Shown here: positions 6,286 through 20,112 of the stretch, in pieces
Layout: every line of letters starts with the position of its first letter
Position numbering within the stretch: position 1 is the stretch's first letter
DNA from: a virus
Direction: 5' to 3' (one strand)
Length of the DNA stretch: 20,910 nt
Virus record (IMG/VR): IMGVR_UViG_3300020109_000160
Coordinates: 1 to 20,910 of that record
The notes under the pieces: model-generated
What the model was told of the DNA's origin: nothing
The model's database searches: none
The model's input: only the letters and a program-made list of their open reading frames with translations
Translations under genes and position numbers: made by a program

Positions 6286-6699
6286 ATGGATATCCGCGAC
6301 CTCACGGTCGGGCGCGTCAAGATCCAGGACGAGGCAGTCACCACGTTCCCCTACGCGATCACGATCGGAGCGCAGCGCGTGATCGATCAGTCCCAGTGGG
6401 CGACGCTGCAGACGCTCAGCTTCACCAAGGGGCGCAACGCGCCAATGCCGGTTCACATCCGCTGCGACGTGTCAGCCGGTGCGGGACCGGGTGCTGTGGC
6501 GCGCCTGCGCATGCGCCGGAACGGGGTTCTCATGCGGGAATGGGACGACATCAACCGGCTGGAGCCCAACGAGTACACGATCGTGGACATCGACACCGCG
6601 GCGGTGCCCACGACCTACACCTTGGAGGTCATGCCCCGGCAAGGACCGTACATCGACTTCACCAACAGCTTCATCGGGGTGCTGAATGCCCACAGGTGA
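6286..6699 (+). CDS. Small beta-rich tail protein resembling the end of a tip (J-like) protein
   Basis: The product has 137 residues. ATG at 6286 follows GGAGAACAGG; a GTG at 6238 in the same frame lies inside the hairpin and is not used here. The N-terminus (IRDLTVGRVKIQDEAVT) resembles the link that precedes the last domain of lambda-J-like tip proteins, where repeats of the form ADLAVTTAKIADGAVT occur. The rest looks like a beta sandwich with a RLRMRRNGVLMREWDD strand pair and a closing YTLEVMPRQG strand. It could be a free-standing receptor-facing domain or a remnant of a larger tip gene whose front part was lost. It overlaps the next gene by 14 bases. Function is uncertain. Confidence 0.7.
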   Translation: MDIRDLTVGRVKIQDEAVTTFPYAITIGAQRVIDQSQWATLQTLSFTKGRNAPMPVHIRCDVSAGAGPGAVARLRMRRNGVLMREWDDINRLEPNEYTIVDIDTAAVPTTYTLEVMPRQGPYIDFTNSFIGVLNAHR

Positions 6700-7195: not shown

Positions 7196-9691
7196 ATGCC
7201 ATTGATTTCGACGTACAGCGTCGGCACCGTCACGGTGTCGGCGGGCAGCGCCATTGTGACCGGCGCCGGCACCTCGTTTGTGGCAGGCGGTCTGCGGTCC
7301 GGCGACGTGTTCGAGATGGGCGGTCTGTCGATCTCGATCCAGAGCGTGGACAGCAATACGCGGTTGACGCTGGTCAAGGGGTGGCCTGGCACATCGGGCA
7401 ACGGTGCGTACGAGATCCGCCTGACGCCGGATGCCGCGCGGGTGCTTGCTTCTTCGCGCGAGCTGATCACCGGCCTGCAGAACGGCAACCTGCCGGCGCT
7501 GTCGGGCCTGCCAAGTGCCTCCGACGCGCTGCCCTACTTCACCGGACCGGGGTCGGCAGCCGTCACGCCGCTGACTTCGCTGGCGCGCACCCTGCTGTCG
7601 CTGCGCTCGGTTCAGGCCTTCAAGGAAGCTCTGGGGCTTGCCGGATATGCCGGCGCCGGCATCCGGGTGCTGGGCACCCGCTCCAGCGTGTCGAACCTGC
7701 CGGCGTCCGGCGCGGTCGGAGATGCCTATCTGGTCGGATCGAACCTCCATATCTGGACCGGCTCTGCCTGGGCCAACGCCGGATCGATCACGGGTCCCGC
7801 AGGCGCCGATGGCGTGCCGATCTATTCCTCGCGCACGGCGGCCGAGGCCGCAGTGCCCACCCTCTCGACATCCGTGACGGACGTCCTGGTGCGCGAGGGG
7901 ACAGGTCTGGTGGTCCGGACCCGCTTCGGCGGCGCTGACGACGCCCTGTTCGACACGGCCCCCCGGTGGGGCGTGACGCTGCGGCTGGCTGACATCCTGG
8001 CGCTGAATGACAAGGCCGACAGTGCGCAAGTGATGCCGCTGTTGACGCCGAGCTATGCCAACCGCGATGCCGCCGTGAGCGGAGCTTCCACCTTGCCTGC
8101 GTCGATCACCCAGATCCTCGTGCGCGAGGGCACGGCCCTGGTCATTCGGTCCCGCACCGCCTCGGCGGATGATCCGCTTTACGCGGAGGGGCCGCGGTGG
8201 GGCGTGATGTTCCGCATAGACCCGAACCAGCTCGGCGCCTTGGTCTCCGAAGCTGTCACCCCCCTGCAGGCGAACCTGTCCAGCCCGTTCAGAACAACGG
8301 TGGCCGAGGGTGATGTTCGGGTGTTGCGCACTGATGCCAACGGTCAGGCGATCGAAATCTACCGGCCAACCGGCCTGGACGCCATCTACTGCCCCGAGTT
8401 CTGGGAGCGTGGTGCTGCGGCGATCGCACCTTTCCTGAACCTGCCCGGCAGCGGGTCGGGCCACCTGTATTCCACGGCAAGCTGGGACGTGATCGGCGTC
8501 CATGGCCAATCCCTGTCCACAGGCGGGCTTTATGACAGCCTGGCCTTCAATGACGTGGCCGGCCGATCGCCGGAAGGGGTGCTTCAGCTGACCGGGATGG
8601 CGCGCAACGATGGCCCGATCGTGGGCGACACCCTCGGGGCGAGTTCCTACGGCTACGCCCCCAATGCGACCGCAACAGGAGTGGCGCCGGCGCGTCCCGG
8701 CGCGACCCGCATCGGGGCGGCCTATCCGATGGCGCTGGCCCGTGACATCATCCAGCGCAAGGCGGGCATCAAGGATCAGGCCCCCACGATCACGACCTCG
8801 CATGGATGGGCGGGGATCGAACTGGACATTCTGGACAGCGATCCCAACACCGGCCGCAACACCAACACCGACGCCTGGCAATGGCTGGTCCGCTACTACC
8901 AGCAGCTTGCCGCAGTCGCGGCCCGGGCGAACCGCCGCGTGAATGTGCCCTGGCACCTGATCGTCCATGGCACCAGCGCCCAAGGCTGGGTGGCAGGCCG
9001 GTATCGGGGCGTCTGGCTGGGTCTGCAGCGCGACACCCGGGCGCTGTTCGACAGCCTCGGGTTCGGTGGCGGCAAGCGGTGGATGCTGACCCAGAGCGGC
9101 GGCCGTGCCAACACGTCCAATACCGTGACCGATCCGTGGCACGTCCTTCAGGATCAGATGGAACTGGTCGAAGCGGGCGCTGCCGAACTGGGAACGTGCG
9201 AGTATTGGTACCCCATCGATGACAATGACGTGCATCCCGCCGCTGCCTCGACCGCCCGCTTTTCCGAGGCCAGCGCGCGGGGCATGACCGAGATCGAGGC
9301 GGGCCGCCGTTGGTCAATCCACCGGCCCAAGCGGGTGATGGAGGGCAGCACCCTGATCCTGGACTACGACAGCCTACGCCCGGGGGAATACCTGCGCGCC
9401 GTATCCGCCACCAAATACAACGGCCAGGGGATCGACGGCTTCCTGGGCTATCAGCTGGTGGGGGGCACGATCACCGAGGTGGAGCTGCGCGGCCGCACTG
9501 CGCGGCTGACTTACACCGGCACGCCCACGCGGATCCGCTATGCCAACCAGCGCCAGGACACGACCAGCTTTGCGAACAATCGTTACAACGCCATGCGCGG
9601 GCTGGTGAAGGCGTCCGATGAGTGGCCGTCTGAACTGATCCCGGGCGCAGTCGTCGAGCGCCCGACGCCAATCTTTGATCTCGCCTTGTGA
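7196..9691 (+). CDS. Tail fibre / receptor-binding protein with SGNH esterase domain
   Basis: The product has 831 residues. The N-terminal domain (about 1-85) with repeated GTVTVSAGSAIVTGAG and RSGDVFEMGG strands is a typical virion-attachment module. A short collagen-like GPAGADG lies near residue 203. Two copies of a roughly 52-residue unit follow at about 209-260 and 286-337; both contain T-(D/Q)-(V/I)-LVREGT and end PRWGV. The C-terminal half has a GHGQS-like block (GVHGQSLSTGG, Ser439) and a late DDNDVHP block (D675/D676/D678, His680). These match the nucleophile and acid-His blocks of SGNH/sialate-O-acetylesterase-type hydrolases. The likely role is deacetylation of a host surface polysaccharide during adsorption. 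The substrate is unknown, and the exact catalytic Asp is not certain because the usual DxxH spacing is not perfect. Confidence 0.8.
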   Translation: MPLISTYSVGTVTVSAGSAIVTGAGTSFVAGGLRSGDVFEMGGLSISIQSVDSNTRLTLVKGWPGTSGNGAYEIRLTPDAARVLASSRELITGLQNGNLPALSGLPSASDALPYFTGPGSAAVTPLTSLARTLLSLRSVQAFKEALGLAGYAGAGIRVLGTRSSVSNLPASGAVGDAYLVGSNLHIWTGSAWANAGSITGPAGADGVPIYSSRTAAEAAVPTLSTSVTDVLVREGTGLVVRTRFGGADDALFDTAPRWGVTLRLADILALNDKADSAQVMPLLTPSYANRDAAVSGASTLPASITQILVREGTALVIRSRTASADDPLYAEGPRWGVMFRIDPNQLGALVSEAVTPLQANLSSPFRTTVAEGDVRVLRTDANGQAIEIYRPTGLDAIYCPEFWERGAAAIAPFLNLPGSGSGHLYSTASWDVIGVHGQSLSTGGLYDSLAFNDVAGRSPEGVLQLTGMARNDGPIVGDTLGASSYGYAPNATATGVAPARPGATRIGAAYPMALARDIIQRKAGIKDQAPTITTSHGWAGIELDILDSDPNTGRNTNTDAWQWLVRYYQQLAAVAARANRRVNVPWHLIVHGTSAQGWVAGRYRGVWLGLQRDTRALFDSLGFGGGKRWMLTQSGGRANTSNTVTDPWHVLQDQMELVEAGAAELGTCEYWYPIDDNDVHPAAASTARFSEASARGMTEIEAGRRWSIHRPKRVMEGSTLILDYDSLRPGEYLRAVSATKYNGQGIDGFLGYQLVGGTITEVELRGRTARLTYTGTPTRIRYANQRQDTTSFANNRYNAMRGLVKASDEWPSELIPGAVVERPTPIFDLAL

Positions 9692-9700
9692 GGGAATGAC

Positions 9701-10426
9701 ATGGACATCATCAGGCATGATTTCGTTGCCGCGCCTGCGCATACGTTCGGGGTTCTGCTGCCCTTGGTGGATGCCTTGGCCAGCTATCCGCAGTTTGTTG
9801 ATCTGTGGCAGGCCAACGTCGACAGCGTCACACGAACCGCCAGCGGTCGCGTGTCGGCGTGGACAGGCCGACGCGGCCGGGTATTGGCGCAGCCTAACGA
9901 AACTTGGCAGCCCCGGCTGGTCGGCGGTCAGATCGATTTTTCGAACGGATCCGGCGCTGCGCAGGGCCTTCTAAGCCTGACGGCGTCGATCGGGACTGAT
10001 CCGTCTGATCTGACGATTGGGATGCTGGTCAACGTGGCAAACCTTGCCACCGACAATCAGTTCATCTTCGGTGATCACGTGGCCCCGACACTGCGCCTGC
10101 GTTATCGCACAAATGGCGGTTCCCCTGTGATCTTTCTGGACGGGACCAACGTCATAGGATCGGCCGGAATGAGGGTGGCGGCGGATCAGACACGGATACC
10201 GATCGTGCTGCGCATTGCGGGTACGGCTGCGACCTTGACCGGCGGCACTGCCGCCGGTTCTGCAACCATCAACGTGCCGCACGTCCTGGACGTCCTCAAC
10301 ATTGGTGGCGGCAGCAGCAACGCCCCGACCCTGGCGGGGTCTGTTTCAAAGCTGGCGATCTGGCGCGCGGCCCTGACGGATGCGCAAAGGGTCAAGGCAT
10401 TGGAGTGGCTGAACGCCGCAACGTGA
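9701..10426 (+). CDS. LamG / concanavalin-like phage protein
   Basis: The product has 241 residues. After an N-terminal segment (about 1-45, with FVDLWQANVDSVTRT), the remainder alternates strands with the pattern of LamG-type lectin folds: SGRVSAWTGRRGRVLAQ, GGQIDFSNGSG, a central LRYRTNGGSPVIFLDG, a VLNIGGG turn and the closing GSVSKLAIWRAALTDAQR. That last motif (K-L-x-I-W-x-x-A-L-T-D-A-Q) is typical of the final strand of LamG domains. The gene directly follows the esterase fibre, so a carbohydrate-binding part of the tail tip is likely. No secretion signal is visible. Ligand unknown. Confidence 0.75.
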   Translation: MDIIRHDFVAAPAHTFGVLLPLVDALASYPQFVDLWQANVDSVTRTASGRVSAWTGRRGRVLAQPNETWQPRLVGGQIDFSNGSGAAQGLLSLTASIGTDPSDLTIGMLVNVANLATDNQFIFGDHVAPTLRLRYRTNGGSPVIFLDGTNVIGSAGMRVAADQTRIPIVLRIAGTAATLTGGTAAGSATINVPHVLDVLNIGGGSSNAPTLAGSVSKLAIWRAALTDAQRVKALEWLNAAT

Positions 10427-10524: not shown

Positions 10525-10542
10525 ATCCAAGAAGTCTTTAGA

Positions 10543-10617
10543 CGGAGGCCGCGATGCCTGATCCTGATCTGTGGTGGCAGGCGGCCGCCCACGCCCGCTC
10601 ACCTGAGGTGTGGGCGG
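10543..10617 (+). repeat. 75-bp direct repeat, copy 1 (start of a holin-like gene)
   Basis: The 75 bases include a GGAG Shine-Dalgarno, an ATG at 10554 and the first 21 codons (MPDPDLWWQAAAHARSPEVWA) of the holin-like gene. They recur at 11604-11678 with two differences: one just before the ATG, and one third-position change in a Pro codon. Sequence identity ends abruptly at 10617/11678. Confidence 0.9.
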
Positions 10618-10706
10618 ACTTTGTCGGCTGCGTCCTAATTCTAAGTGAGAAGACCCTGCCGCTCCACCTCACGACGGGCAGAACTTGGTCGATCACGCTT
10701 ACCTAA
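10554..10706 (+). pseudogene. Truncated hybrid copy of the holin-like gene start
   Basis: ATG at 10554 with GGAG 6 bases upstream opens a frame that starts with the same 21 residues as the intact gene at 11615. It then switches to unrelated sequence (DFVGCVLILSEKTLPLHL and on) and stops at TAA 10704-10706 after 50 residues. The same frame stays open after that stop for a further 37 codons, to TAA 10818-10820, including SLRSWIGNFGMLAQAVIAA, which looks partly hydrophobic. The hybrid could be a broken membrane protein gene with a nonsense mutation, or a chance frame created by the recombination that made the 75-bp repeat. Because it keeps the ribosome-binding site, a 50-residue peptide with the holin N-terminus may still be made. 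It is annotated as a broken gene because of the junction. Confidence 0.6.
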
Positions 10707-10950
10707 ATTTTGGGTTTGGCTACGTTCACGATCGCTAATCCACAGGTAAACAACAACGACAGCCTGCGTAGCTGGATCGGCAACTTCGGCATGTTGGCGC
10801 AGGCGGTGATAGCGGCCTAACTCCCTCCTGTGGACGGTGGAACTGAAACAAAGCTGCTTGGCATGGTGAAGGTCCAACTGCTAGTCACAGGCCTGACGCA
10901 TTGGTGCTAGTATATTAGCCACCATCACCTGCGATGATGCTAATGGCACT

Positions 10951-11454
10951 CTAACTGTCTTCATCAAGCCACCGCCATTCTACATGTATGTCCGACAGAC
11001 GAAGCCCCTCCGGAGCAATCAGCATAACTTTACATGAACCATTGTTTGGACGGACAACCCAATTCAAAGATATCTGCGAGACACGAGGAGCTCGAGCAGG
11101 TTCGACTGCCTGCTCTTTCCCATCCTTACCCTTCAGGATCAGCGCCGCTCTTTCGGCAAACTCTTTTCCGCTCTTGGTGCTAATACTCACTAGCCTAATA
11201 CCGCGAGCCGCCTCGATGTTGGTGATGGTGAATGTTGTTGCGAACCATCCTGTATAGGCACCCGTAAGTTGTGGAGGGATCTTATCTCTCCAGATATGCA
11301 ACAATTGCTTGGACTGTTCATGCTCTATCAACGGTTCTTGACGTCTAGACTTCGCAACTTCGTATTTGACTGAAGCGCGCATGTAGAAAGCGCTGGCCAA
11401 CGTGCCAAGCATGCTGAGTGCCGCAACAAGTAGGGCAACATCTGACTTATCCAA
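10951..11454 (-). CDS. Single-TM membrane protein of unknown function (insert cargo)
   Basis: On the minus strand, 167 residues if the TTG at 11454 is used. It has AGGA about 9 bases upstream and gives a natural N-terminus: MDKSDV, then one membrane helix of about residues 7-26 (VALLVAALSMLGTLASAFYM), then a basic stretch. A longer frame reaching back to 11694 would cover the antisense of the holin gene start, so it is rejected. After the helix come a charged linker (SVKYEVAKSRRQEPLIEHEQ) and a soluble beta-rich domain (FTITNIEAARGIRLVSIST, and ISLNWVVRPNNGSCKVMLI), ending EWRWLDEDS. I do not recognise the family. It is opposite in strand to all surrounding phage genes, less GC-rich than they are, and lies inside the segment bracketed by the 75-bp repeats. 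This is the typical setting of a moron gene, for example superinfection exclusion. That role is inference only. Confidence 0.65.
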   Translation of the reverse strand: MDKSDVALLVAALSMLGTLASAFYMRASVKYEVAKSRRQEPLIEHEQSKQLLHIWRDKIPPQLTGAYTGWFATTFTITNIEAARGIRLVSISTKSGKEFAERAALILKGKDGKEQAVEPARAPRVSQISLNWVVRPNNGSCKVMLIAPEGLRLSDIHVEWRWLDEDS

Positions 11455-11476
11455 GATCGTTTTCCTGCTAGTTCCC

Positions 11477-11508
11477 GGACAGGTTGTGTCCTGAATTAGC
11501 GGAGTCAA
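11477..11508 (-). promoter_or_regulatory. Possible promoter/operator of the minus-strand membrane gene
   Basis: On the minus strand a TTGACT (11508-11503) lies upstream of the gene. Just downstream of it is an inverted repeat GGACA-N5-TGTCC at 11477-11491. No good -10 box is seen at the right distance, so this is a weak candidate. Confidence 0.3.
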
Positions 11509-11603
11509 CGATTCGGAGGCTTTCCCGCCGTAAGAACAGTGCGGGCCGCGCAGCTTACCATGCGGTTGCTCAAGTGACAGAACATGTAAATTACAAGAAG
11601 ATG

Positions 11604-11678
11604 CGGAGGCCGCAATGCCCGATCCTGATCTGTGGTGGCAGGCGGCCGCCCACGCCCGCTCACCTGAGGTGTGGGCGG
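11604..11678 (+). repeat. 75-bp direct repeat, copy 2 (start of the intact holin-like gene)
   Basis: This is the second copy of the repeat at 10543-10617, 1061 bases apart, with 73 of 75 bases identical. Here the sequence continues into the full holin-like gene. Confidence 0.9.
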
Positions 11679-11944
11679 GCATCGCCGCTGGCATGATCTA
11701 CGTCTACAACAAATCGCCTCTGCCAGCGCGTGCCTCGCGCGCGGCCGAGGCCACTGTCAGCGGCCTGCTGGCTTACTCGGCTGGTGAATGGGCGGCAGCT
11801 TGGGCCGGGGTGCATGAAGCCATTGCCGTCATTCTGCTGGCCTCGCTCGGCTACGCCATCCTCGACGTGGCCCGCTCGCTGATCGCTGATCGCGAGATCC
11901 TCAAGGACATCATCGTCAAGCGCTTGGGAGGCAAGAATGGCTAA
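11615..11944 (+). CDS. Putative holin / small phage membrane protein
   Basis: The product has 109 residues, with a GGAG Shine-Dalgarno inside the repeat. Three hydrophobic segments can be seen: about 20-36 (WAGIAAGMIYVYN), about 48-68 (VSGLLAYSAGEWAAAWAGV) and about 70-90 (AIAVILLASLGYAILDVA). A basic, charged C-terminal tail follows (DREILKDIIVKRLGGKNG). Size, three-TM topology and charged end are those of phage holins, which form the inner-membrane lesion that lets the endolysin reach the wall. The stop overlaps the next ATG by 8 bases. The amidase is far away (19480), separated by the glycosyltransferase cassette and the glycosidase gene. A second small membrane gene (20116) is a rival holin candidate. 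Confidence 0.65.
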   Translation: MPDPDLWWQAAAHARSPEVWAGIAAGMIYVYNKSPLPARASRAAEATVSGLLAYSAGEWAAAWAGVHEAIAVILLASLGYAILDVARSLIADREILKDIIVKRLGGKNG

Positions 11945-12380
11945 GTGCACGCACCTGTCCGCCGCGATCTACAGGCACACGACGCCGGGGGCGCTATTGC
12001 TGCTCATGTTCGCGGCCATCATCTTTGTACCCCGCCTCTGGGACACCATTCGCGGTGAGCCGTGGATCGACAACAAGCTGGCCATCGTCCAGAACAGCAC
12101 TGGCGCCATCGTGGTGGAGGATCTGACCTTTACCCGGGGCGCGGTCCATGGCCTGCGCGTGAACACGATCGAGGCGGAAGACGGATCGGTCCTCTGCTCG
12201 ACCGAGCATCACAACACCTGGTTGGGTGAGCGCAACCGCTTCTGGCGCATCCAGGCGTTCACCGGCTGCGCACCGCCTTACGATCCTTACCGCATCTGCT
12301 CACGCTTCGTGGTCTCAAGCGACAGCGGCCGGCAGAGGTACTTCGGGCCATTCTGTTCAGGGCTGACTAAGCCGGAGTGA
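11937..12380 (+). CDS. Membrane-anchored periplasmic protein of the lysis block
   Basis: The product has 147 residues and a GGGAGG Shine-Dalgarno four bases before the ATG, which lies inside the end of the holin-like gene, so the two are translationally coupled. One N-terminal membrane helix at about 18-34 (GALLLLMFAAIIFVPRL) is followed by a soluble domain with several Cys (VLCST, a GCAPPYDPYRICSRF stretch, and FCSG near the end) that could form disulfides in the periplasm. The C-terminus reads GLTKPE. Coupling to a holin suggests a lysis accessory role (spanin-like or anti-holin), but no lipobox or coiled coil typical of spanins is visible. The family is not recognised. The last codons are duplicated downstream of the glycosyltransferase cassette. 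Confidence 0.7.
   Translation: MAKCTHLSAAIYRHTTPGALLLLMFAAIIFVPRLWDTIRGEPWIDNKLAIVQNSTGAIVVEDLTFTRGAVHGLRVNTIEAEDGSVLCSTEHHNTWLGERNRFWRIQAFTGCAPPYDPYRICSRFVVSSDSGRQRYFGPFCSGLTKPE
12360..12380 (+). repeat. 21-bp direct repeat, left copy (flanks the glycosyltransferase cassette)
   Basis: The 21 bases encode GLTKPE and the stop of the membrane gene. They recur at 15679-15699 with two differences, both third-position and synonymous in this frame (Thr ACT/ACG and Pro CCG/CCA). Confidence 0.75.
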
Positions 12381-12473
12381 TGGAGAAGGAACAACCCGCC
12401 AGGCTCAAACGGTTGCGAACTAGCGGGCAAAAAGGGTAAGTGCGCTTGAACATCCATTTTATCCCAGATTTTC

Positions 12474-14015
12474 ATGCTCCACAGTTTTCGCGTCCACAAA
12501 GGCGTCAAATTACTCGAACGGCCGCAGGGCATGCTGAGGAAGGTCCCTCTGGCAGATGTGGTGGCGCACAACTTGGTGAACAATCCGCGGCGCCGGCGGG
12601 CATTGGATACTCACATCGCCGACTACTACTGGCATCGGCGGATGATCAATGGCTTCGCGATCAAAACAATTTTGGCAGAAGTTGAACGGCCAAAGCAGAA
12701 GAAGTCCTATCTCCAGACGCGAGGCAACGCGATCCTGAATGGTGCATCAGGGAGCCGCGCGAGGAACGTTTTGCGCAAAGGCTTGAATTTTTCGGAGGAG
12801 AGTGTCGAGTATTTCCGCAGGACCTACGGCGACCTTCTAGATCCGTCAGCAATTGAAGTCGGTTCATCAGCAACACAAACCAGCTGGATCGACGCCAAGA
12901 ATTACCACAACTTCTTTCACTTCTTGACGGAAAGCTTTCATTTGGCATTCGCCCCCTCGCTGGCGCAGCGAGGTGTGCAGGTGATTCAGTTCGTCTCCAA
13001 GTCTAAGCGAATGGGTGACTTTGTCAGGAAGTGGGTCGACGATTGCCACGAGATCATCGGCGACGACGTCAAGATTGAGACACTTGTCAGCCCAAAGCTG
13101 AGCAAAGGTGCATCCGTTCTGCTGCCGATGTCAGGTGAGCACCTGCTCTACCAATTCTCAGGTGATCATCACCGAGAGATTGAGGCAGCTCGTCCGGCAG
13201 GTAGTACTTGGACCGGATATGACGGCACGCCTCACCCGGTCAAAATGCTTCAGTTCAACTCTTACGATGAGAGCCTTGGGCACTTCCGCAGTAAGGCGAT
13301 CGATCTCGCGCAGCGCAAGGTCACCAAGACTTGGTCTGGCAAAATCTATGCTATCAGGTCACGGAGCTTGTTGCGCAGCCGAACGATGAAGGGTGAGGAA
13401 GTACTTATCAAGGCTCTCGCTAAACAGGGCTTCGAGATCGTTTGCTTTGAAAAGATGTCTCCCCTGGAGCAGGTGAAATGCGTCAGCAGCGCTGATTGCG
13501 TCGTCATGCAGCACGGGGCGGGCATGACCAACATGCTCTTTGCCAAGCCCACTGCGCATGTTTTCGAACTAGGAACCTATCAAACGGCTCTCGCACGATG
13601 GGTAGATTTCATTCAGATCTCGCAGGTCTCAGGATGTCACTACCATCACGTCTTTCTCGATATGGATTATCCTGAGGAAGACGCGGATCCAGTGTTTGCT
13701 GAGGATGGTCTGGTAGCGCCGGTCATCTCCAAGGAAGATGCTGCGCGGCTCGTCTTGCTCATCTGCTCTGAGGCACATGATCACAGAACAGGGGGCTTGT
13801 CGGGGCTTCTTCGGCACTGCAAGTTCTACATGGAGCGCGGAGCATACAAGCAGGCGTACAGGCTGCTAGATGCTAATGCAGTGTTCTTTGACCTAACAGC
13901 CGACTACTGGAACCAAAGAGGGTTGCTGGCAGATGCTTGCCAGCACCGGGAGCGAGCCCAGGACGCCTACAAGAGGGCACACAGCATCGAAGCTAGTTCT
14001 GGATCAAATCGATGA
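12474..14015 (+). CDS. Glycosyltransferase, GT61 (DUF563) type, with C-terminal helical tail
   Basis: The product has 513 residues. ATG 12474 has no clear Shine-Dalgarno; ATG 12531 is an alternative. The core signature lies at about residues 290-365: a IYAIRSRSLLRSRTMKGEE stretch (R-x-R, then E), a GFEIVCFEKMSPLEQV stretch, then ADCVVMQHGAGMTNMLF with the HGAG-x-TN loop at 347-353, and FELG. These are the recognisable blocks of the GT61/DUF563 family, which transfers sugars (xylose, GlcNAc and others) in bacterial capsule and O-antigen assembly. The last about 70 residues (RHCKFYMERGAYKQAYRLL, then YWNQRGLLADACQHRERAQDA) look like a TPR-type repeat pair. There is no signal peptide, so it probably acts on the cytoplasmic side. 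Composition is less GC-rich than the phage genes. Acceptor and donor are unknown. Confidence 0.8.
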   Translation: MLHSFRVHKGVKLLERPQGMLRKVPLADVVAHNLVNNPRRRRALDTHIADYYWHRRMINGFAIKTILAEVERPKQKKSYLQTRGNAILNGASGSRARNVLRKGLNFSEESVEYFRRTYGDLLDPSAIEVGSSATQTSWIDAKNYHNFFHFLTESFHLAFAPSLAQRGVQVIQFVSKSKRMGDFVRKWVDDCHEIIGDDVKIETLVSPKLSKGASVLLPMSGEHLLYQFSGDHHREIEAARPAGSTWTGYDGTPHPVKMLQFNSYDESLGHFRSKAIDLAQRKVTKTWSGKIYAIRSRSLLRSRTMKGEEVLIKALAKQGFEIVCFEKMSPLEQVKCVSSADCVVMQHGAGMTNMLFAKPTAHVFELGTYQTALARWVDFIQISQVSGCHYHHVFLDMDYPEEDADPVFAEDGLVAPVISKEDAARLVLLICSEAHDHRTGGLSGLLRHCKFYMERGAYKQAYRLLDANAVFFDLTADYWNQRGLLADACQHRERAQDAYKRAHSIEASSGSNR

Positions 14016-14218
14016 TTCATAAGCGGGCGTTTTAATTCAGATCCTTCTGCTCACCTCTGACAACGTCAGAGTAATATCGGCGCAATGCCGGAAAGTGTAC
14101 TCATCACGAACCCTTTGACCCACAATATTCAAACATTAATAGCGATTCCGCAGTCGAAGCTAATTATTAGCTTATTATACGATGTCGGAAATAATACTTA
14201 AGCCAAGCGGACTTTTAT
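14016..14218. promoter_or_regulatory. AT-rich intergenic region with two inverted repeats
   Basis: This gap between the two glycosyltransferases is strikingly AT-rich (17 G+C of 60 bases in 14161-14220). It holds CTCTGAC-AAC-GTCAGAG (14055-14071) and AAGCTAA-TTA-TTAGCTT (14157-14173), both perfect 7-bp inverted repeats with 3-base spacers, i.e. operator-like. A TTGACC at 14115-14120 could be a -35 box, and TTATTATAC at 14172-14180 a -10-like element, but the two are not at standard spacing. The second glycosyltransferase therefore probably has its own promoter here. Confidence 0.45.
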
Positions 14219-15685
14219 ATGTATTACCCAAACTCAACCCGCGTCTACAGTATCTTTGACCGGCTCGGCAAAGGTGGTGGTGGCAAGGTTCGGGCCGTAC
14301 TCAACCGCCTCAATGGATTTGCGGAGATGGAAGGCTATGTTCCTGTTCTTCTGAACCTGAGCCACAGCGTCCGCCAGAAGATCAACTTTTTAGAGCTTCA
14401 ATCAAGCGGAGTGATTTCAGCAAACGTGGTGAGCATGACATTGCCGGAAGCTTGCTATGATGTTGCCGCGCAGGGTGATCATTCTTCCTTTGACTTTCCG
14501 CCTTACGACACCATGCATGAGGTGGATGACGGTGCCACCTATACCTATCAGGGCGAACCGGTCATGGCAGATGAAGTGGCAATCACTGCCTTAGGGTCGG
14601 TAACCAAGCGGACGGTCTTCCGTCCAAAAGGCGACGAACAGTTCACGCTCATCAACGGGCGCCTCTTCCAGAAGGTCCGGAAGTGGGATCAGTTTCGACG
14701 CATTACCGACTATGTGAATGATGTTCCGATCCGTTGGGCCGATTGGGAAGGTCGAAACTACATAAGAGGTCGAAATCTGCTGACTGGCGAGGCTTACAAG
14801 AACCACCATGACTTTGAGCGGAGCTTCTTCAAACTGATTTCGTGGGATAACTCAGTCGTCTTCTTCGACGGCGTGACGTCGGCTTATCTTTCCCCCGCCA
14901 CGGCGGCTCCACGGGTTTTGTTTTTGCATGCAGACCATCGCAGCCCTTCTGGCCAGATCGTCCCAAGGTCAAAGTTCCTGATCGAAAACTTCAAGGGGGA
15001 AGCCATCGTCACCTCGACGGACACCCATAAGAAGCAGATAGAGGAGGATGTGACACCGGCAGCCGAGATCCATGTGGTACCGCACTTCTGCGACAGGTCT
15101 AAAGCGCCAAGTCCTCTGCGTAGAAACCTTGTAACTGTTTCTCGCCTTGATCTTGTTGGAAAGCCAATTGACGAGTGTGTCAAAGCCTTCCACGAGATCT
15201 GCGACGACTTCCCAGACGTTGATTACCTGATCTACGGGGAGGGGAGCGGGCAGAAACGCTTGGAAGCTCTGATTGCTGATTTCGGCCGTGGATCGCGTAT
15301 TCACCTGATGGGCTATACCACCGATCCGGATCGCGTGTTCCGTGGCGCGCTGACTGCTGTGTATCCAACACTGACCGAAGGCTTCGGCCTCTCTATCCTC
15401 GAAGCCCTCTCTGCGGGCTGCCCTGTGATCTCCTATGATGTGAACTATGGGCCGCGTGAGATGATTTTGCGGGGACAAAACGGCGAACTTGTCGCGCCAG
15501 GTGACATCGCTTCGCTGGCTGATGCGATGAGAAAAGTCCTTTCAGACGCTGAGCTCTACCAGCGCAACACGGATCTTCGGTTAGATAGGTATTCCCGCGA
15601 GGCGTACTTGTCCAACTACCAAGCTCTTGTCGAAAAGGTTCTTAAACCCACGTTTTTAGGCGCATCTGCTGGTTGTGGGGGCTGA
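14219..15685 (+). CDS. Glycosyltransferase, GT4-like (TagE/poly(glycerol-phosphate) glucosyltransferase type)
   Basis: The product has 488 residues. The ATG has only a weak purine stretch before it. An N-terminal Rossmann-like half opens with RVYSIFDRLGKGGGGKVRAV, a Gly-rich loop as in GT-B enzymes. A long insert at about 85-200 carries a TYTYQGEP-type beta region, as in the TagE/GtfA group. The C-terminal half has LVTVSRLDLVGKPIDECV, YLIYGEGSGQKRLEALI, HLMGYTTDPDRVFRGA and EGFGLSILEAL, i.e. the GT4 EX7E pair at E387 and E395, then SYDVNYGPREMI. It is a retaining, cytoplasmic, sugar-nucleotide-using enzyme by family. Targets of relatives are teichoic-type polymers, capsule or glycoproteins; the target here is unknown. 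It is cassette partner of the GT61-like gene. The right repeat copy begins at its last codons. Confidence 0.85.
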   Translation: MYYPNSTRVYSIFDRLGKGGGGKVRAVLNRLNGFAEMEGYVPVLLNLSHSVRQKINFLELQSSGVISANVVSMTLPEACYDVAAQGDHSSFDFPPYDTMHEVDDGATYTYQGEPVMADEVAITALGSVTKRTVFRPKGDEQFTLINGRLFQKVRKWDQFRRITDYVNDVPIRWADWEGRNYIRGRNLLTGEAYKNHHDFERSFFKLISWDNSVVFFDGVTSAYLSPATAAPRVLFLHADHRSPSGQIVPRSKFLIENFKGEAIVTSTDTHKKQIEEDVTPAAEIHVVPHFCDRSKAPSPLRRNLVTVSRLDLVGKPIDECVKAFHEICDDFPDVDYLIYGEGSGQKRLEALIADFGRGSRIHLMGYTTDPDRVFRGALTAVYPTLTEGFGLSILEALSAGCPVISYDVNYGPREMILRGQNGELVAPGDIASLADAMRKVLSDAELYQRNTDLRLDRYSREAYLSNYQALVEKVLKPTFLGASAGCGG

Positions 15686-15699
15686 CGAAGCCAGAGTGA
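15679..15699 (+). repeat. 21-bp direct repeat, right copy
   Basis: This copy repeats 12360-12380, 19 of 21 identical. Read in the register of the membrane gene it again gives GLTKPE and a stop. It overlaps the end of the GT4-like gene and lies just before the hairpin terminator at 15705. Confidence 0.75.
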
Positions 15700-15704
15700 A
15701 AAGC

Positions 15705-15734
15705 GGCCCCCGGACGGACCAAAATCCGGGGGCC
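15705..15734 (+). terminator. Hairpin at the end of the glycosyltransferase cassette
   Basis: GGCCCCCGGA (15705-15714) and TCCGGGGGCC (15725-15734) form a perfect 10-bp stem with a 10-base loop. Only two T follow. Its position right after the duplicated gene end suggests it was originally the terminator of the holin/membrane-gene transcript. Confidence 0.65.
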
Positions 15735-16024
15735 TTCGCAGGACGTTCGGGTCACCCGCCTAATATAGGCTGAGTGCGCGCGAAATATGCGCCGTAGCCC
15801 ACGGTCCAGCGTCCCAGTTCTACCTCTATGTGCGATCTGATGATGTTGAGGAATCAACTGTCGCGTTACGAAAATCCTAAAATTCACTCGGCGGATGAGG
15901 CAAGCTTCATCTTGCACCTTGTGCAATTTTCTTTGCGCAGAGGCAGGCCCGAAAGGCGTCAGCGTCGTGCGAGCAGAATTGACCAACCTGTCGGGGCCGA
16001 GCGGTACGCACGATCGACCGCGTC
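15735..16024. other. Stretch without a supported gene
   Basis: Only short, poorly coding-looking frames are present. I see no RNA gene and no clear protein family. It may be decayed phage DNA between the lysis block and the glycosidase gene. Confidence 0.5.
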
Positions 16025-16243
16025 TCAATGCAGGCTGGGCGACGCTCCTGATGCCGGCTGACGGGCAAAGGGAATGACAGTACAGGCTGCAGTCTTGCGG
16101 GAGGCTGCAGCGCAGTCGTTCAACCAGCGTATCTGCCAGCCCGGCCCGCTGTCAGCATAGCAGGACAAGCACCCCTTCCAGTGGGGGCTCATCCACTGGA
16201 GTTCACTTCCACAAGTCTTGCACCACACGTTGTCGCGCATCAT
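16025..16243 (-). CDS. Possible small zinc-ribbon protein
   Basis: On the minus strand, 72 residues, starting at ATG 16243 with an AGGG about 5 bases upstream. The N-terminal half has two Cys pairs, CKTC (residues 8-11) and CLSC (25-28), with CG after the first, an aromatic-rich spacer (ELQWMSPHWKG) and WQIRWLNDC afterwards. This is a zinc-ribbon-like spacing. The last about 25 residues look unstructured. Such small Zn-ribbon proteins are common phage accessory genes. The gene is isolated, opposite to its neighbours, and no operon is visible. It could be a chance frame, but the CxxC pair and the possible ribosome-binding site argue for a real gene. Function unknown. Confidence 0.45.
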   Translation of the reverse strand: MMRDNVWCKTCGSELQWMSPHWKGCLSCYADSGPGWQIRWLNDCAAASRKTAACTVIPFARQPASGASPSLH

Positions 16244-16565
16244 TCGACCCTATCGGCTTGATTTTAGGAGCTTCTGACACACGAAGCTTCAAGATGAGTT
16301 AAGGGCAGACAATCAACGCTGCGTCACATTCCTACTCGCAACTGGCAGAGGATCACCTGTCAGCGTTCGAAGTCCCTCTCTAGGCCTATGCGCAGCGGAG
16401 GGCCCAAGTAAGGGCCTGACAGCGCTGTCGCGCGATGCAACACCCCAAGCGCGCCACGCATCTGCGACAGCCTGAATTCAAACGACAATCGACGCGGGCA
16501 GCTCCCAGCTGGCGGGGCTGCGCACGTATGCTTAACCGAAGATTAAAACCCGTTCGTCAAAAACC
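16244..16565. promoter_or_regulatory. Non-coding leader with palindromes upstream of the glycosidase gene
   Basis: No convincing gene is seen. GACAGCGCTGTC (16418-16429) is a perfect 12-bp palindrome. TGTCGC-GC-GATGC at 16426-16438 is nearly complementary to GCATC-T-GCGACA at 16459-16470, which could form a hairpin. A frame open from ATG 16435 joins the glycosidase gene but would read through the terminator, so it is not used. The stretch may hold a promoter or operator for the glycosidase/lysis unit. Confidence 0.35.
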
Positions 16566-16587
16566 GCCCGCTCACCGCGGGCTTTTT
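16566..16587 (+). terminator. Intrinsic terminator / attenuator before the glycosidase gene
   Basis: GCCCGC (16566-16571), loop TCACC, GCGGGC (16577-16582), then TTTTT (16583-16587). The stem-loop ends 15 bases before the ATG at 16603, so it sits in the 5' leader, as at other genes of this phage. Confidence 0.65.
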
Positions 16588-16602
16588 GCATTGGAGAACC
16601 TC

Positions 16603-19407
16603 ATGAACACCCAACACTGCCGCCGCCTTGCAGAACTGTTTGCCGATGTCAGCAAGACATTCGCAGCAGCCGCAGATACGACCGCAGAGCCGGAAGAGCC
16701 TATGCCCGCGCCAACCCCCGAGCCGGAGCCACTTCCAGCCCCCACGCCGCCCGCACCGCCCCCTGTCGTGCCGGAGCCGACGCCAGAGCCCGAACCCGGA
16801 TCCGAACCCGCACCGACAACGCCTGCTCCCGCGGATCGGGATGCCAAACTGTCAGTTGCTGTTGGCCTCGGCGGTCTTGCCGATTGGCGGGCCTCGCAAC
16901 CGTTCCTGGACGTCATGAAGTCCGGGCGCCCCTGGATGGCGCGCACGTGGAGCGCTTTTGGCTTCATGGAGCATGAGCAGATGCGGGCAGGCGGGCATCT
17001 TGACGCCGATGGCTGGCCGCTGCGCGTGCCCCCTGGCGCTGACTTCGTGGCCTCTGTCATCCTGACCGATCTGGACGCTTCCGACACCAGCATTGCGGGG
17101 CGCTACCGCCTGTTCTGGGACGGGGAGGGCGAAGTGAACGTCTGGGGACGTGCCGCCAACCCCACGCGCGGCACCCGCTGGCTGGAGTTCGACTTCACCC
17201 CCGGCAGCGGGATCGTGGACGTTCGCGTGTCGGGCATCAGTGCGACGAACCCGATCAAGAACATCCGCTGCGTCAAGACCCAGCATCTGGCCGCTTTCAA
17301 TGCGGGCGCGATCTTCCGGCCCGAATGGCTGGATCTGGTCCGCAACTTCCGCTGCCTGCGCTTCATGGACTGGCAGGCAACGAACGACAGCCGCGTCACG
17401 ACCTGGCAGAGCCGTGCCCGCCCGGCCTCCACGACCTGGGCCACGGATGCCCCCGTCGAGGTCATGGTGGCGCTGGCGAACGAGATCCAGATCGACCCGT
17501 GGTTCTGCATCCCGCATGGGGCGACGGATGACTACATCAGCCGCTTTTCCACGCTTGTCCGCGACAACCTGAACCCCCGCCTCAAGGCATATTTCGAACT
17601 GAGCAACGAGGTGTGGAACTGGCAGTTCCAGCAGGCGCATTATGCCAACCAGCAGGCTCTGCGCCTCTGGCCGGATCTGGTCAACGGCAACGGGTGGATG
17701 CAGTGGCATGGCGGCCGATCCGCTGAAATGGCCATGATCCTTGACCGGGTTTTCGATGGCCAGCGCGGGCGCTATGTGAAGGTGATTGCCACGCAGACCG
17801 GATATCAGGGGATCGAAGATCCCATCCTCAACGCTCCCCGATGGGTTGCGATGCAGGCCGGTCGCCGCGCACCCAAGGCGTATTTCGACGCCTATGCGGT
17901 CACGGGCTACTGGGACGGCGGCTTCAACAGCGCGGGAGCGATCCAGCGCATCCAGGAATGGCGCCGCGACCACGGCGAAGAAGGCGCCATGCAGCGGATG
18001 CGAGAGCAGATGCTTGACGGCCGTCACCTCGGGGCGGATGGCAGCATCGCCGCGCATGAGGCCATCTGGGCTTATCAGAAACGGGTTGCCGATGCGGCCG
18101 GGCTGAAGCTGGTCATGTACGAGGGCGGCAGCCACTTGGTCCCCGCCTTCAGTGGCGCGCACAACAACGCCGACTTGATGGGCTTCCTCGAGCGGTTCCA
18201 CTACTCGCGGCACATGGGGGAGCTCTACACTCACGCCATGACGCGCTTTGACGCCGCAGGCGGCGAGTTCTTCAACGCCTTTGTTGAGATCGACCGGCCT
18301 AGCCGGGATGGCTTCTGGGGCGCCCGGCGGCACGTTGCGGACGACAACCCGCGCTGGCAGGCATTGGTCGAGTTCAATCGCATCGAGCCCCAGCCCGAGC
18401 CCGAACCGGTGACGCCCCCTGCGCCGCCGCCGGTGGTGCCTGTGACGCCCACCCCGCAGCCGGTGCCTCCTGCGCCCCAACCGCCCGCGCAGCCGAGCTT
18501 GGCCGGGATGCTGGGTTTCGCAATCCCCGACGGGGAACTGCTGGCCGGTGGCGAGCCGTGGATGGACCGGATCGCCGCGCTGAACGCCAAGACCGTGCGG
18601 TTCGATGTGCGCCTAGAACGTGTGCAACCCGTCGCCGGCGGGGGCTACCAATGGGCCAACACAGATCGCTTGGTGGACGGCCTTGTGCGGCGCGGCATCA
18701 AGCCGCTGATCCTGCTGAATACCGACATCAGCCTGATCAGCACTGCCGCTGGCCGCACCCGGTTCCGTCAGTTCGCAGAAGCCGCGGTGCATCGCTACGG
18801 CGATCGCTGCAAATGGTGGGAAGTACTCAACGAAGCCAACCACACGACCCTAACGCCTGAAGCCTATGCCGAGCTGCTGCGCATCGTCTATCCGGCGATC
18901 AAGGCGATCCAGCGCGACAGCGTTGTGATCTATGTCGGAAACGCGTCGATCCCATCCACCACCGCGCCGAACGTGCAGGGGGCGGTGGACTACCTGCGGC
19001 GCACCTATGCCCGGCTGAATGGCACCCGCGCCTTTGATGCCGTCGGACACCATCCCTACCAGTACCCGCTGCTGTTCAACCGCACGGACAGCTGGACCGG
19101 CCTTGGCGTCATGCGCTCGATCCGCACTCTGATGAACCAGAACGGCCATCAGGACATGCTGATCTGGATCACCGAAGCCGGCGCCCCGACATCGGGCGGC
19201 AACCAGGCGGTGTCGCAGGCCGACCAAGCGGAAACGCTGCGCCAGTTGGTCGACATGGCTCGCGCCCCGAACAGTGGCCTCGGCCCGATCCACTGGTACG
19301 GCTTCCGTGACCGGGCAACCGGCACCGACACGGAAACCTACTTCGGCATCGAGGATGCGCGAGGCACGCCCAAGGCCGCAGCGGCCGTGTTCCGCGAACT
19401 GGCCTGA
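16603..19407 (+). CDS. Large protein with two glycoside-hydrolase-like TIM-barrel domains and Pro-rich linkers
   Basis: The product has 934 residues. ATG 16603 follows TTGGAGAACCTC; the longer frame from 16435 crosses a terminator and is rejected. Residues 1-28 are helical, and about 30-80 form a Pro/Glu/Thr linker. Domain 1 (about 82-590) has FELSNEVWNW with candidate acid/base E336, and MYEGGSHLV with candidate nucleophile E507. A second Pro-rich linker spans about 594-635. Domain 2 (about 636-934) has WWEVLNEANH (E744) and IWITEAGAPT (E858). The Asn-Glu plus late-Glu arrangement in each is the clan GH-A pattern (retaining glycosidases such as GH5/GH39). The likely role is degradation of host capsule or exopolysaccharide, either virion-bound or released at lysis. 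No Sec signal is evident. The substrate is unknown, and the two domains differ enough to suggest different linkages. Confidence 0.8.
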   Translation: MNTQHCRRLAELFADVSKTFAAAADTTAEPEEPMPAPTPEPEPLPAPTPPAPPPVVPEPTPEPEPGSEPAPTTPAPADRDAKLSVAVGLGGLADWRASQPFLDVMKSGRPWMARTWSAFGFMEHEQMRAGGHLDADGWPLRVPPGADFVASVILTDLDASDTSIAGRYRLFWDGEGEVNVWGRAANPTRGTRWLEFDFTPGSGIVDVRVSGISATNPIKNIRCVKTQHLAAFNAGAIFRPEWLDLVRNFRCLRFMDWQATNDSRVTTWQSRARPASTTWATDAPVEVMVALANEIQIDPWFCIPHGATDDYISRFSTLVRDNLNPRLKAYFELSNEVWNWQFQQAHYANQQALRLWPDLVNGNGWMQWHGGRSAEMAMILDRVFDGQRGRYVKVIATQTGYQGIEDPILNAPRWVAMQAGRRAPKAYFDAYAVTGYWDGGFNSAGAIQRIQEWRRDHGEEGAMQRMREQMLDGRHLGADGSIAAHEAIWAYQKRVADAAGLKLVMYEGGSHLVPAFSGAHNNADLMGFLERFHYSRHMGELYTHAMTRFDAAGGEFFNAFVEIDRPSRDGFWGARRHVADDNPRWQALVEFNRIEPQPEPEPVTPPAPPPVVPVTPTPQPVPPAPQPPAQPSLAGMLGFAIPDGELLAGGEPWMDRIAALNAKTVRFDVRLERVQPVAGGGYQWANTDRLVDGLVRRGIKPLILLNTDISLISTAAGRTRFRQFAEAAVHRYGDRCKWWEVLNEANHTTLTPEAYAELLRIVYPAIKAIQRDSVVIYVGNASIPSTTAPNVQGAVDYLRRTYARLNGTRAFDAVGHHPYQYPLLFNRTDSWTGLGVMRSIRTLMNQNGHQDMLIWITEAGAPTSGGNQAVSQADQAETLRQLVDMARAPNSGLGPIHWYGFRDRATGTDTETYFGIEDARGTPKAAAAVFRELA

Positions 19408-19434
19408 CGCCACCCCGCTTGATTCAAACTTTCG

Positions 19435-19466
19435 CCGCCTTGGGCCGACGCCCGGGGCGGTTTTTT
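19435..19466 (+). terminator. Intrinsic terminator between glycosidase and amidase genes
   Basis: CCGCCTTGGGC (19435-19445) pairs with GCCCGGGGCGG (19450-19460) over 11 bp, including two G-U pairs, around a CGAC loop. Six T follow (19461-19466). It is the strongest-looking terminator in the window, directly before the TGGAGG leader of the amidase gene. Confidence 0.75.
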
Positions 19467-19479
19467 CATGGAGGAATGA

Positions 19480-20112
19480 ATGACCCGCGAAGCCACCCGC
19501 CAGATACAGACCGGCCTGCAGGGCCTCGGCCACGATCCCGGCCCCCTAGATGGCCTATTCGGCGCCAAGACCCGCGCTGCGGCGCAAGCTTGGCTGGATG
19601 CCGGCGGCAAACCGGCCGCGCCTGCTGTGACGCTGGCCCCCAAGCACGCGACCTCGGCCATGATCTACCAGGGCAGCGCCCGACACCCGGTGCGCGAGAT
19701 CATCGTCCATTGTGCGGCCACCCGCCCCGACTGGATGGCAGGCCGCCCGATCGCCGAGAAGGTGGCCGAGATCCGGCGCTGGCATCTGGCCAACGGCTGG
19801 CGCGACATTGGCTATCACTGGATCATCGACCGTGACGGCAAGGTCCTCGCCGGCCGTGCCGAGACGGTGATCGGCAGCCATACCATCGGCAAGAACAGCG
19901 GCACGATCGGCATCTGCCTTCTGGGTGGCCACGGCTCAGCCGAGACCGACCTTTTTGCGAATCACTTCACCCCGCAGCAGGACATCACCCTGCGCCAGAT
20001 GATCGAGGCGATCAGCTCGCGCACCGGCATCGCCCGCATCAGCGGCCACAACGAATATGCGGCCAAGGCCTGCCCAGGCTTTGACGTGTCCACCTGGCTG
20101 AAAGGAGCCTGA
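19480..20112 (+). CDS. N-acetylmuramoyl-L-alanine amidase endolysin (T7 lysozyme type, PG-binding domain)
   Basis: The product has 210 residues, with GGAGG 5 bases before the ATG. The N-terminal about 3-45 residues (RQIQTGLQGLGHDPGPLDGL, then FGAKTRAA) form a peptidoglycan-binding type 1 domain. The rest is an Amidase_2/T7 lysozyme domain. The zinc ligands can be placed at H77 (IIVHCA), H190 and C198 (GHNEYAAKACPG), with the conserved Lys at K196. The H-to-C spacing equals that of T7 lysozyme, and Y112 (GYHW) is in the expected position. The enzyme cuts the amide bond between MurNAc and L-Ala and ends infection by lysis. No signal peptide is seen, so it needs a holin. The next gene starts 4 bases after the stop. 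Confidence 0.93.
   Translation: MTREATRQIQTGLQGLGHDPGPLDGLFGAKTRAAAQAWLDAGGKPAAPAVTLAPKHATSAMIYQGSARHPVREIIVHCAATRPDWMAGRPIAEKVAEIRRWHLANGWRDIGYHWIIDRDGKVLAGRAETVIGSHTIGKNSGTIGICLLGGHGSAETDLFANHFTPQQDITLRQMIEAISSRTGIARISGHNEYAAKACPGFDVSTWLKGA

Follow-up and report, generated by a model that had tools for sequence, protein, structure and literature searches.

Cargo gain by phages without loss of essential functions has usually been inferred from clean module boundaries. A study of lambdoid phages concluded that most exchange is homologous and carried out by phage recombinases, with illegitimate recombination far less frequent (De Paepe 2014, PMC3945230), so that exchanges leaving remnants of the genes concerned, as described here, would be worth explaining. 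The present analysis concerns a 20,910-nucleotide (nt) stretch of viral DNA from a Paracoccus prophage (IMG/VR virus record IMGVR_UViG_3300020109_000160, positions 1 to 20,910; the whole stretch is referred to as the window), in which a holin-like gene and an adjoining membrane gene (memb), together the lysis pair, are accompanied on both sides by cargo that includes two glycosyltransferase genes, and in which the two ends of the pair recur outside this block. Serial replacement of the lysis pair, through recombination that is not site-specific and that brings surface-modifying cargo along, probably produced the locus.

The cargo resembles morons, or lysogenic conversion genes, a concept developed for lambdoid phages that denotes extra genes of odd composition, lying between modules, absent from relatives, likely to be expressed in the lysogen and surface-modifying, the last two being predictions for the present genes. 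Its composition is unlike that of the surrounding phage genes (51-53% against 64-67% guanine plus cytosine, GC), and it separates genes that adjoin each other in the related phages L009 and L024. Unlike morons, the present cargo stands on both sides of the lysis pair, the whole block is flanked by what appear to be the broken ends of an older pair, and the record of the displacement is still readable at the locus. Serotype-converting gtr clusters are located close to the attachment site, and their products are a flippase, a bactoprenol transferase and a transferase specific to the serotype. The window shares with these clusters, as found in Shigella phage SfI, phage-borne glycosyltransferases that may alter surface polysaccharide (PMC3636060); unlike them, it has two cytoplasmic-type enzymes located at the lysis genes, and the block holds just these GT61 and GT4 family members, with no gtrA flippase, gtrB bactoprenol glucosyltransferase or type-specific membrane transferase.

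A further likeness is to module mosaicism, in which lysis modules are swapped between phages and resident prophages and small gene fragments are exchanged (De Paepe 2014, PMC3945230); unlike the exchanges described there, the present joints lie inside genes at variable positions, head and tail remnants are left, and non-phage cargo is brought in. Prophages of the Paracoccus virome share the host genus, holin-endolysin lysis modules and mosaicism, and the passages on their lysis modules place methyltransferase genes downstream in seven prophages, without mention of lysis-gene remnants; the main text of that study has no mention of moron, glycosyltransferase or tibetensis (PMC6536676). Cargo gain and lysis-module exchange are known phenomena, and the present case is a variant of the mosaicism familiar from phages and does not represent an element of a new kind; what is uncommon is that the head and tail of displaced genes are preserved on both sides and in several prophages. 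Such scars, recurring in several independent prophages, make the order, direction and precision of exchanges measurable and can help to decide whether phage mosaicism is of homologous or non-homologous origin, a matter of continuing debate (PMC3945230).

Duplicated ends of the lysis pair in the window

Along the window, structural genes are followed by the old holin head, a first cargo block, the intact holin-memb pair, the glycosyltransferase genes, the old memb tail, a hairpin with a conserved box, a small open reading frame (ORF) on the minus strand, a large gene of glycosidase-like type and, last, the endolysin gene (Table 1). A lamG gene (9701-10426) flanks the locus on the left and the box at 15753 on the right. 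GC content alternates along this order, from 66% in the structural genes to 51% in the left cargo, 64% in the holin-memb pair and 52.9% in the right cargo. The intact pair, with cargo on either side, is placed between the broken head and the broken tail of an older pair copy.

Table 1. Coordinates of the features discussed (nt, nucleotides; aa, amino acids; RBS, ribosome-binding site; E, expect value).
Feature	Position	Strand	Details
Putative broken head of older holin gene	10541..10617	+	RBS, ATG at 10554, about 21 codons; nhmmer head match E 1.3e-13
Left cargo block	10618..11603		51% GC; flanked by holin-start repeat copies
Intact holin-like gene, 109 aa	11615..11944	+	Weak PHROG holin/anti-holin match, E 0.017
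Intact membrane gene (memb), 147 aa	11937..12380	+	Overlaps holin gene; no named family
Intact copy of 21-nt repeat	12360..12380	+	GGGCTGACTAAGCCGGAGTGA; encodes GLTKPE and stop; end of ORF 11937-12380
GT61 glycosyltransferase, 513 aa	12474..14015	+	PF04577 E 2.7e-16, 60.5 bits (cut-off 27)
GT4 glycosyltransferase, 488 aa	14219..15685	+	PF00534 E 4.3e-31, 108.2 bits (cut-off 26.4); stop inside tail remnant
Putative broken tail of older memb gene	15679..15699	+	GGGCTGACGAAGCCAGAGTGA; 19/21 to 12360-12380, 19/21 to memb tails of L023 and L024
Terminator-like hairpin after displaced tail	15705..15734	+	11-pair stem; contiguous with memb tails in L046, L049
Conserved box CGCCTAATATAGGCTGAGTGCG and flank	15753..15794	+	Common to other Paracoccus prophages
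Endolysin (N-acetylmuramoyl-L-alanine amidase)	19480..20112	+	PF01510 E 2e-12; phrog_822 E 1.5e-51

A preliminary description, made from the sequence alone, had reported that the last codons of memb recur after two glycosyltransferase genes, and this is confirmed: the two copies (12360-12380 and 15679-15699) agree at 19 of 21 positions, with the joint consensus GGGCTGAC[T/G]AAGCC[G/A]GAGTGA, and a degenerate 21-mer pattern allowing up to three mismatches finds just these two places in the window, against a chance expectation of 0.00 in 100 dinucleotide shuffles. Both differences fall at third-codon positions and are, as had been stated, synonymous in the memb frame, and the GT4 stop codon (15683-15685) lies within the right copy, out of frame with memb. 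Equally accurate were the accounts of a deviating composition between the repeats (52.9% GC in 12381-15678 against 64-66% around it), of the glycosyltransferases, which Pfam assigns to GT61 and GT4, and of a hairpin at 15705-15734, the stem of which has 11 pairs.

A second direct repeat, missed in that description, was revealed by a repeat search of the window at the start of the holin gene (10543-10626 and 11604-11687; 84 nt, 93% identical). Its best part (10543-10617 against 11604-11678) is identical at 73 of 75 positions (97%) and includes the ribosome-binding site, and the left copy is broken off at 10617, after about 21 codons. Each end of the pair is thus present twice and in the proper order, with the head upstream and the tail downstream; because a second holin head stands on the far side, the intact memb gene is better read as incoming and the right copy as the leftover of the resident.

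The tail genes on one side and the hairpin at 15705 on the other would originally have enclosed an older holin-memb pair, and a foreign block made up of the left cargo, a new holin-memb pair and the GT61 and GT4 genes would have taken the place of the interior of that older pair, with joints at no fixed site. Left over from the old pair would be the first approximately 21 holin codons (10541-10617) and the last seven memb codons including the stop (15679-15699), the displaced memb tail now also terminating the GT4 gene. As the incoming pair would maintain lysis, the recombinants would be viable and the attached cargo would be carried along. From the arrangement we infer replacement in one event, non-homologous joints and this direction of transfer.

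The holin head remnant keeps its start site and reads on into a 50-aa frame (10554-10706; MPDPDLWWQAAAHARSPEVWADFVGCVLILSEKTLPLHLTTGRTWSITLT), and a truncated holin peptide made from it could in principle act on the intact holin.

Head and tail remnants in related prophages

Nucleotide profiles of the whole pair, its head and its tail were searched through 109 loci (1.29 Mb), with the pair profile applied to 20 loci. Partial copies were found as heads in the window, L043, L048, L049 and L031, and as tails in L028, in L046 (twice) and in L049 (twice); intact or decayed whole pairs aside, no internal fragments of the pair appeared in these profile searches, and reversed-sequence controls gave 0 matches. 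At loci with an intact pair, heads lie upstream and tails downstream in all cases (8/8, the window counted). The 21-nt tail of the window is too short for the profile (E 7.6), its identification resting on the degenerate pattern search.

Head remnants end at model positions ranging from 57 to 215, and tail remnants start at positions 668, 685, 705, 710 and 729, while that of the window comprises the last 21 nt only; with such varying head ends and tail starts, there is no common breakpoint, and neither a precise crossover at the gene end, as had been suggested in the preliminary description, nor a fixed site explains the joints. The same variation bears on a site-specific mobile cassette that would integrate at the 3' end of memb and bring a new tail for the gene, in the manner of integrases that act at gene ends. 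A repeat consisting of an exact gene end with its stop, together with cargo that varies between phages, would suit such a cassette, but 12381-15678 contains no recombinase or transposase gene, the 5' limits of the tail remnants vary by prophage with no constant junction core, and the duplicated holin head on the other side is left unexplained, which renders this account very improbable. Site-specific insertion was rejected on the missing recombinase gene and the variable breakpoints, and a transposon footprint on the lack of a transposase or inverted ends around 12381-15678.

The modular swap at a gene end that had first been proposed is partly supported and is broadened here, the exchange not being restricted to one gene end, as the holin head is duplicated as well. 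Homologous exchange at conserved gene ends, with the pair as a whole not replaced, has a precedent in the relaxed recombination by phage recombinases, also across lysis genes, documented in lambdoid phages (PMC3945230); it would not, however, leave a truncated second copy on each side, and six related virus records (possibly fragments; Redbeta and Sak types were not searched) showed no member of the RecT and ERF families of annealing proteins, so that we judge it improbable.

What the right-hand copy was originally attached to is indicated by two relatives. In L046, a memb tail (6606-6676) goes straight into the hairpin and box, the latter in the form CGCCTA[AC]T[AG]TAGGCTGA[AG]TGCG, with no cargo between, and in L049 a decayed memb tail passes into hairpin and box in the same way (8686-8558, then 8556-8461), likewise without cargo. 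These junctions support assignment of the right 21-nt copy to the hairpin and bear out the earlier view of this copy as the tail of a homologous gene and not the footprint of a transposon. The evidence is weaker than might be wished because memb is decayed in both L046 and L049 and no intact memb gene directly before this hairpin was found in any relative examined.

A further rival holds that the pair stayed put and that each cargo block was inserted independently, through template switching or break-induced replication for instance, duplicating an edge (84 nt of the holin start, 21 nt of the memb end). The close similarity of the copies in the window (73/75 for the head, 19/21 for the tail) and the L048 remnant, which is nearest its own intact pair, agree with it. 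In pairwise comparison, however, five remnants (three in L049 and one each in L028 and L031) are nearer to the pair of another phage than to the adjoining intact pair, and two, the heads of the window and L048, are nearer to their own, with the window tail tied. The intact tail of the window and its remnant each depart from the homologue consensus at a different position, which argues that neither is a fresh copy of the other; moreover, the duplicated edges vary in length from 21 to 160 nt, and the second tail in L049 lies beside the hairpin-box element. Edge duplication is thus considered rather unlikely, and the remnants taken together favour displaced homologues over self-duplicates, a judgment drawn from sequence similarity that the window alone would not decide.

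Several observations weigh against serial replacement. The window head remnant is 97% identical to the intact head beside it, so that for the window alone local duplication fits equally well, and the tail remnant there amounts to 21 nt only. The L048 head is 77% identical to its own pair and 75% to another, the identity margins between displaced and own copies are small in several relatives, and one tail remnant in L046 is in the opposite orientation. To these are added the want of an intact memb-hairpin junction noted above and of any close relative with the same cargo or with an empty version of this site; where the capsids are 94-96% identical, the phages differ in their lysis regions and gave no empty site, and the source sequence is one contig of a 401-contig assembly. 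Serial replacement nevertheless remains our preferred explanation, and the recurrent remnants suggest that the phages examined here repeatedly replace their lysis genes while gaining surface-altering cargo.

Cargo at the site and its origin

The memb protein is encoded in 10 of 125 Paracoccus genomes (the present one included) and a few virus contigs and is nearly confined to the genus, the rest of the bacterial family having given weak matches alone. It had no match in the phage or plasmid collections and would have a function in lysis. Homologues of the adjoining holin-like gene (62-84% identical) occupy the same place in six related prophages. In L009 and L024, memb is followed by the endolysin gene within about 80 nt, an uninterrupted, cargo-free arrangement. 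Elsewhere the accessory genes differ: L005 has an opposite-strand DUF6236 gene between memb and the endolysin gene, L006 an acyltransferase-3 gene (Acyl_transf_3) after its first endolysin gene, and L031 a hexapeptide transferase (acetyltransferase) gene between the holin head remnant and the intact pair, the last two being cargo of a surface-modifying type in the corresponding place. The present glycosyltransferases were found at this place in none of the relatives examined. The preliminary description had proposed comparing what follows the memb stop in relatives, and constant presence of the glycosyltransferases would have spoken against it; relatives instead have other cargo or none, and the expected junction with the hairpin occurs in L046 and L049, in decayed tails alone.

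Within 12381-15678, the two glycosyltransferase genes are the only long ORFs, and a promoter scan (sigma-70 models alone) gave nothing above shuffles. A plasmid of Paracoccus liaowanqingii carries the closest GT61 relative (77%), with transposase-like genes and further genes of surface-glycan type around it, and GT61 had no match in the phage collection, in which GT4 gave partial matches of about 30%; GT4 also matches a PHROG moron glycosyltransferase (E 2.5e-10). The best relatives of GT61 and GT4 in the genus are in different genomes, and neither a holin nor a memb gene was found at those loci. Given the plasmid-borne GT61 relative and the poor phage-collection matches, the cargo looks to have been drawn from accessory genes that circulate in the genus. 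The enzymes probably alter the surface glycan of the lysogen, and would thereby block superinfection or change phage adsorption. The minus-strand ORF of the left cargo (10951-11694) encodes a small membrane-type protein without database match.

The scars suggest joint selection of an essential gene pair and its surface-altering cargo. More tentatively, lysis pairs and surface-glycan cargo of these Paracoccus prophages may travel as a recurrent exchange unit, each replacement leaving both ends of the displaced pair behind, with nested remnants providing an ordered history of replacement that could be read from one genome.

Hairpin-box element and other features of the lysis region

The hairpin followed by the near-palindrome CGCCTAATATAGGCTGAGTGCG is a recurring intergenic element, present in the window, L043, L044, L045, L046, L047, L049, L240 and L241, and upstream of the endolysin gene in most of these prophages; it may serve the lysis operon as an operator or a terminator. 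As the box is a general intergenic element that precedes the endolysin gene with or without lysis-pair remnants, it was rejected as an insertion site. Downstream of it, a small 72-aa zinc-ribbon-like protein with a weak PF12773 match is encoded on the minus strand (16025-16243), and a similar cysteine-pair coding sequence, judged by eye, lies beside the box in L044 and L046. Next is a 934-aa protein (16603-19407) that is rich in proline in its N-terminal part and matches glycosidases weakly (GH17, GH1); homologues of it, about 30% identical, occur in the capsid-related prophages L237, L238, L240 and L241. A hairpin and ribosome-binding stretch of one kind precedes this gene (16563-16602; GCGGGCTTTTTGCATTGGAG) and the endolysin gene (19434-19479; GGGGCGGTTTTTTCATGGAGG), as well as the endolysin genes of relatives, and such repeated gene-start boundaries could help module shuffling. 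No RNA families or tRNAs were found in the window.

A search for the endolysin gene, made in the way described for the lysis pair, gave one clear truncated copy, in L026, besides short matches to diverged endolysins. In L026, an endolysin gene is broken off after its first half and joined to the last third of a memb gene (7197-7712), about 620 nt upstream of the intact endolysin gene, and this fusion is another exchange scar in the lysis region. In L043 (6960-6812), from a second prophage of genome G009, 57 nt of a holin head are identical to the L023 holin; behind this head come another copy of the hairpin-box element and then an unrelated gene, an arrangement that looks like a recent holin replacement. 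Finally, the genome that harbors the window carries another holin-memb pair on contig C294 (L010, 2598-3080). This pair is decayed, having lost most of its holin gene and having broken frames, and is possibly a relative of the displaced copy.

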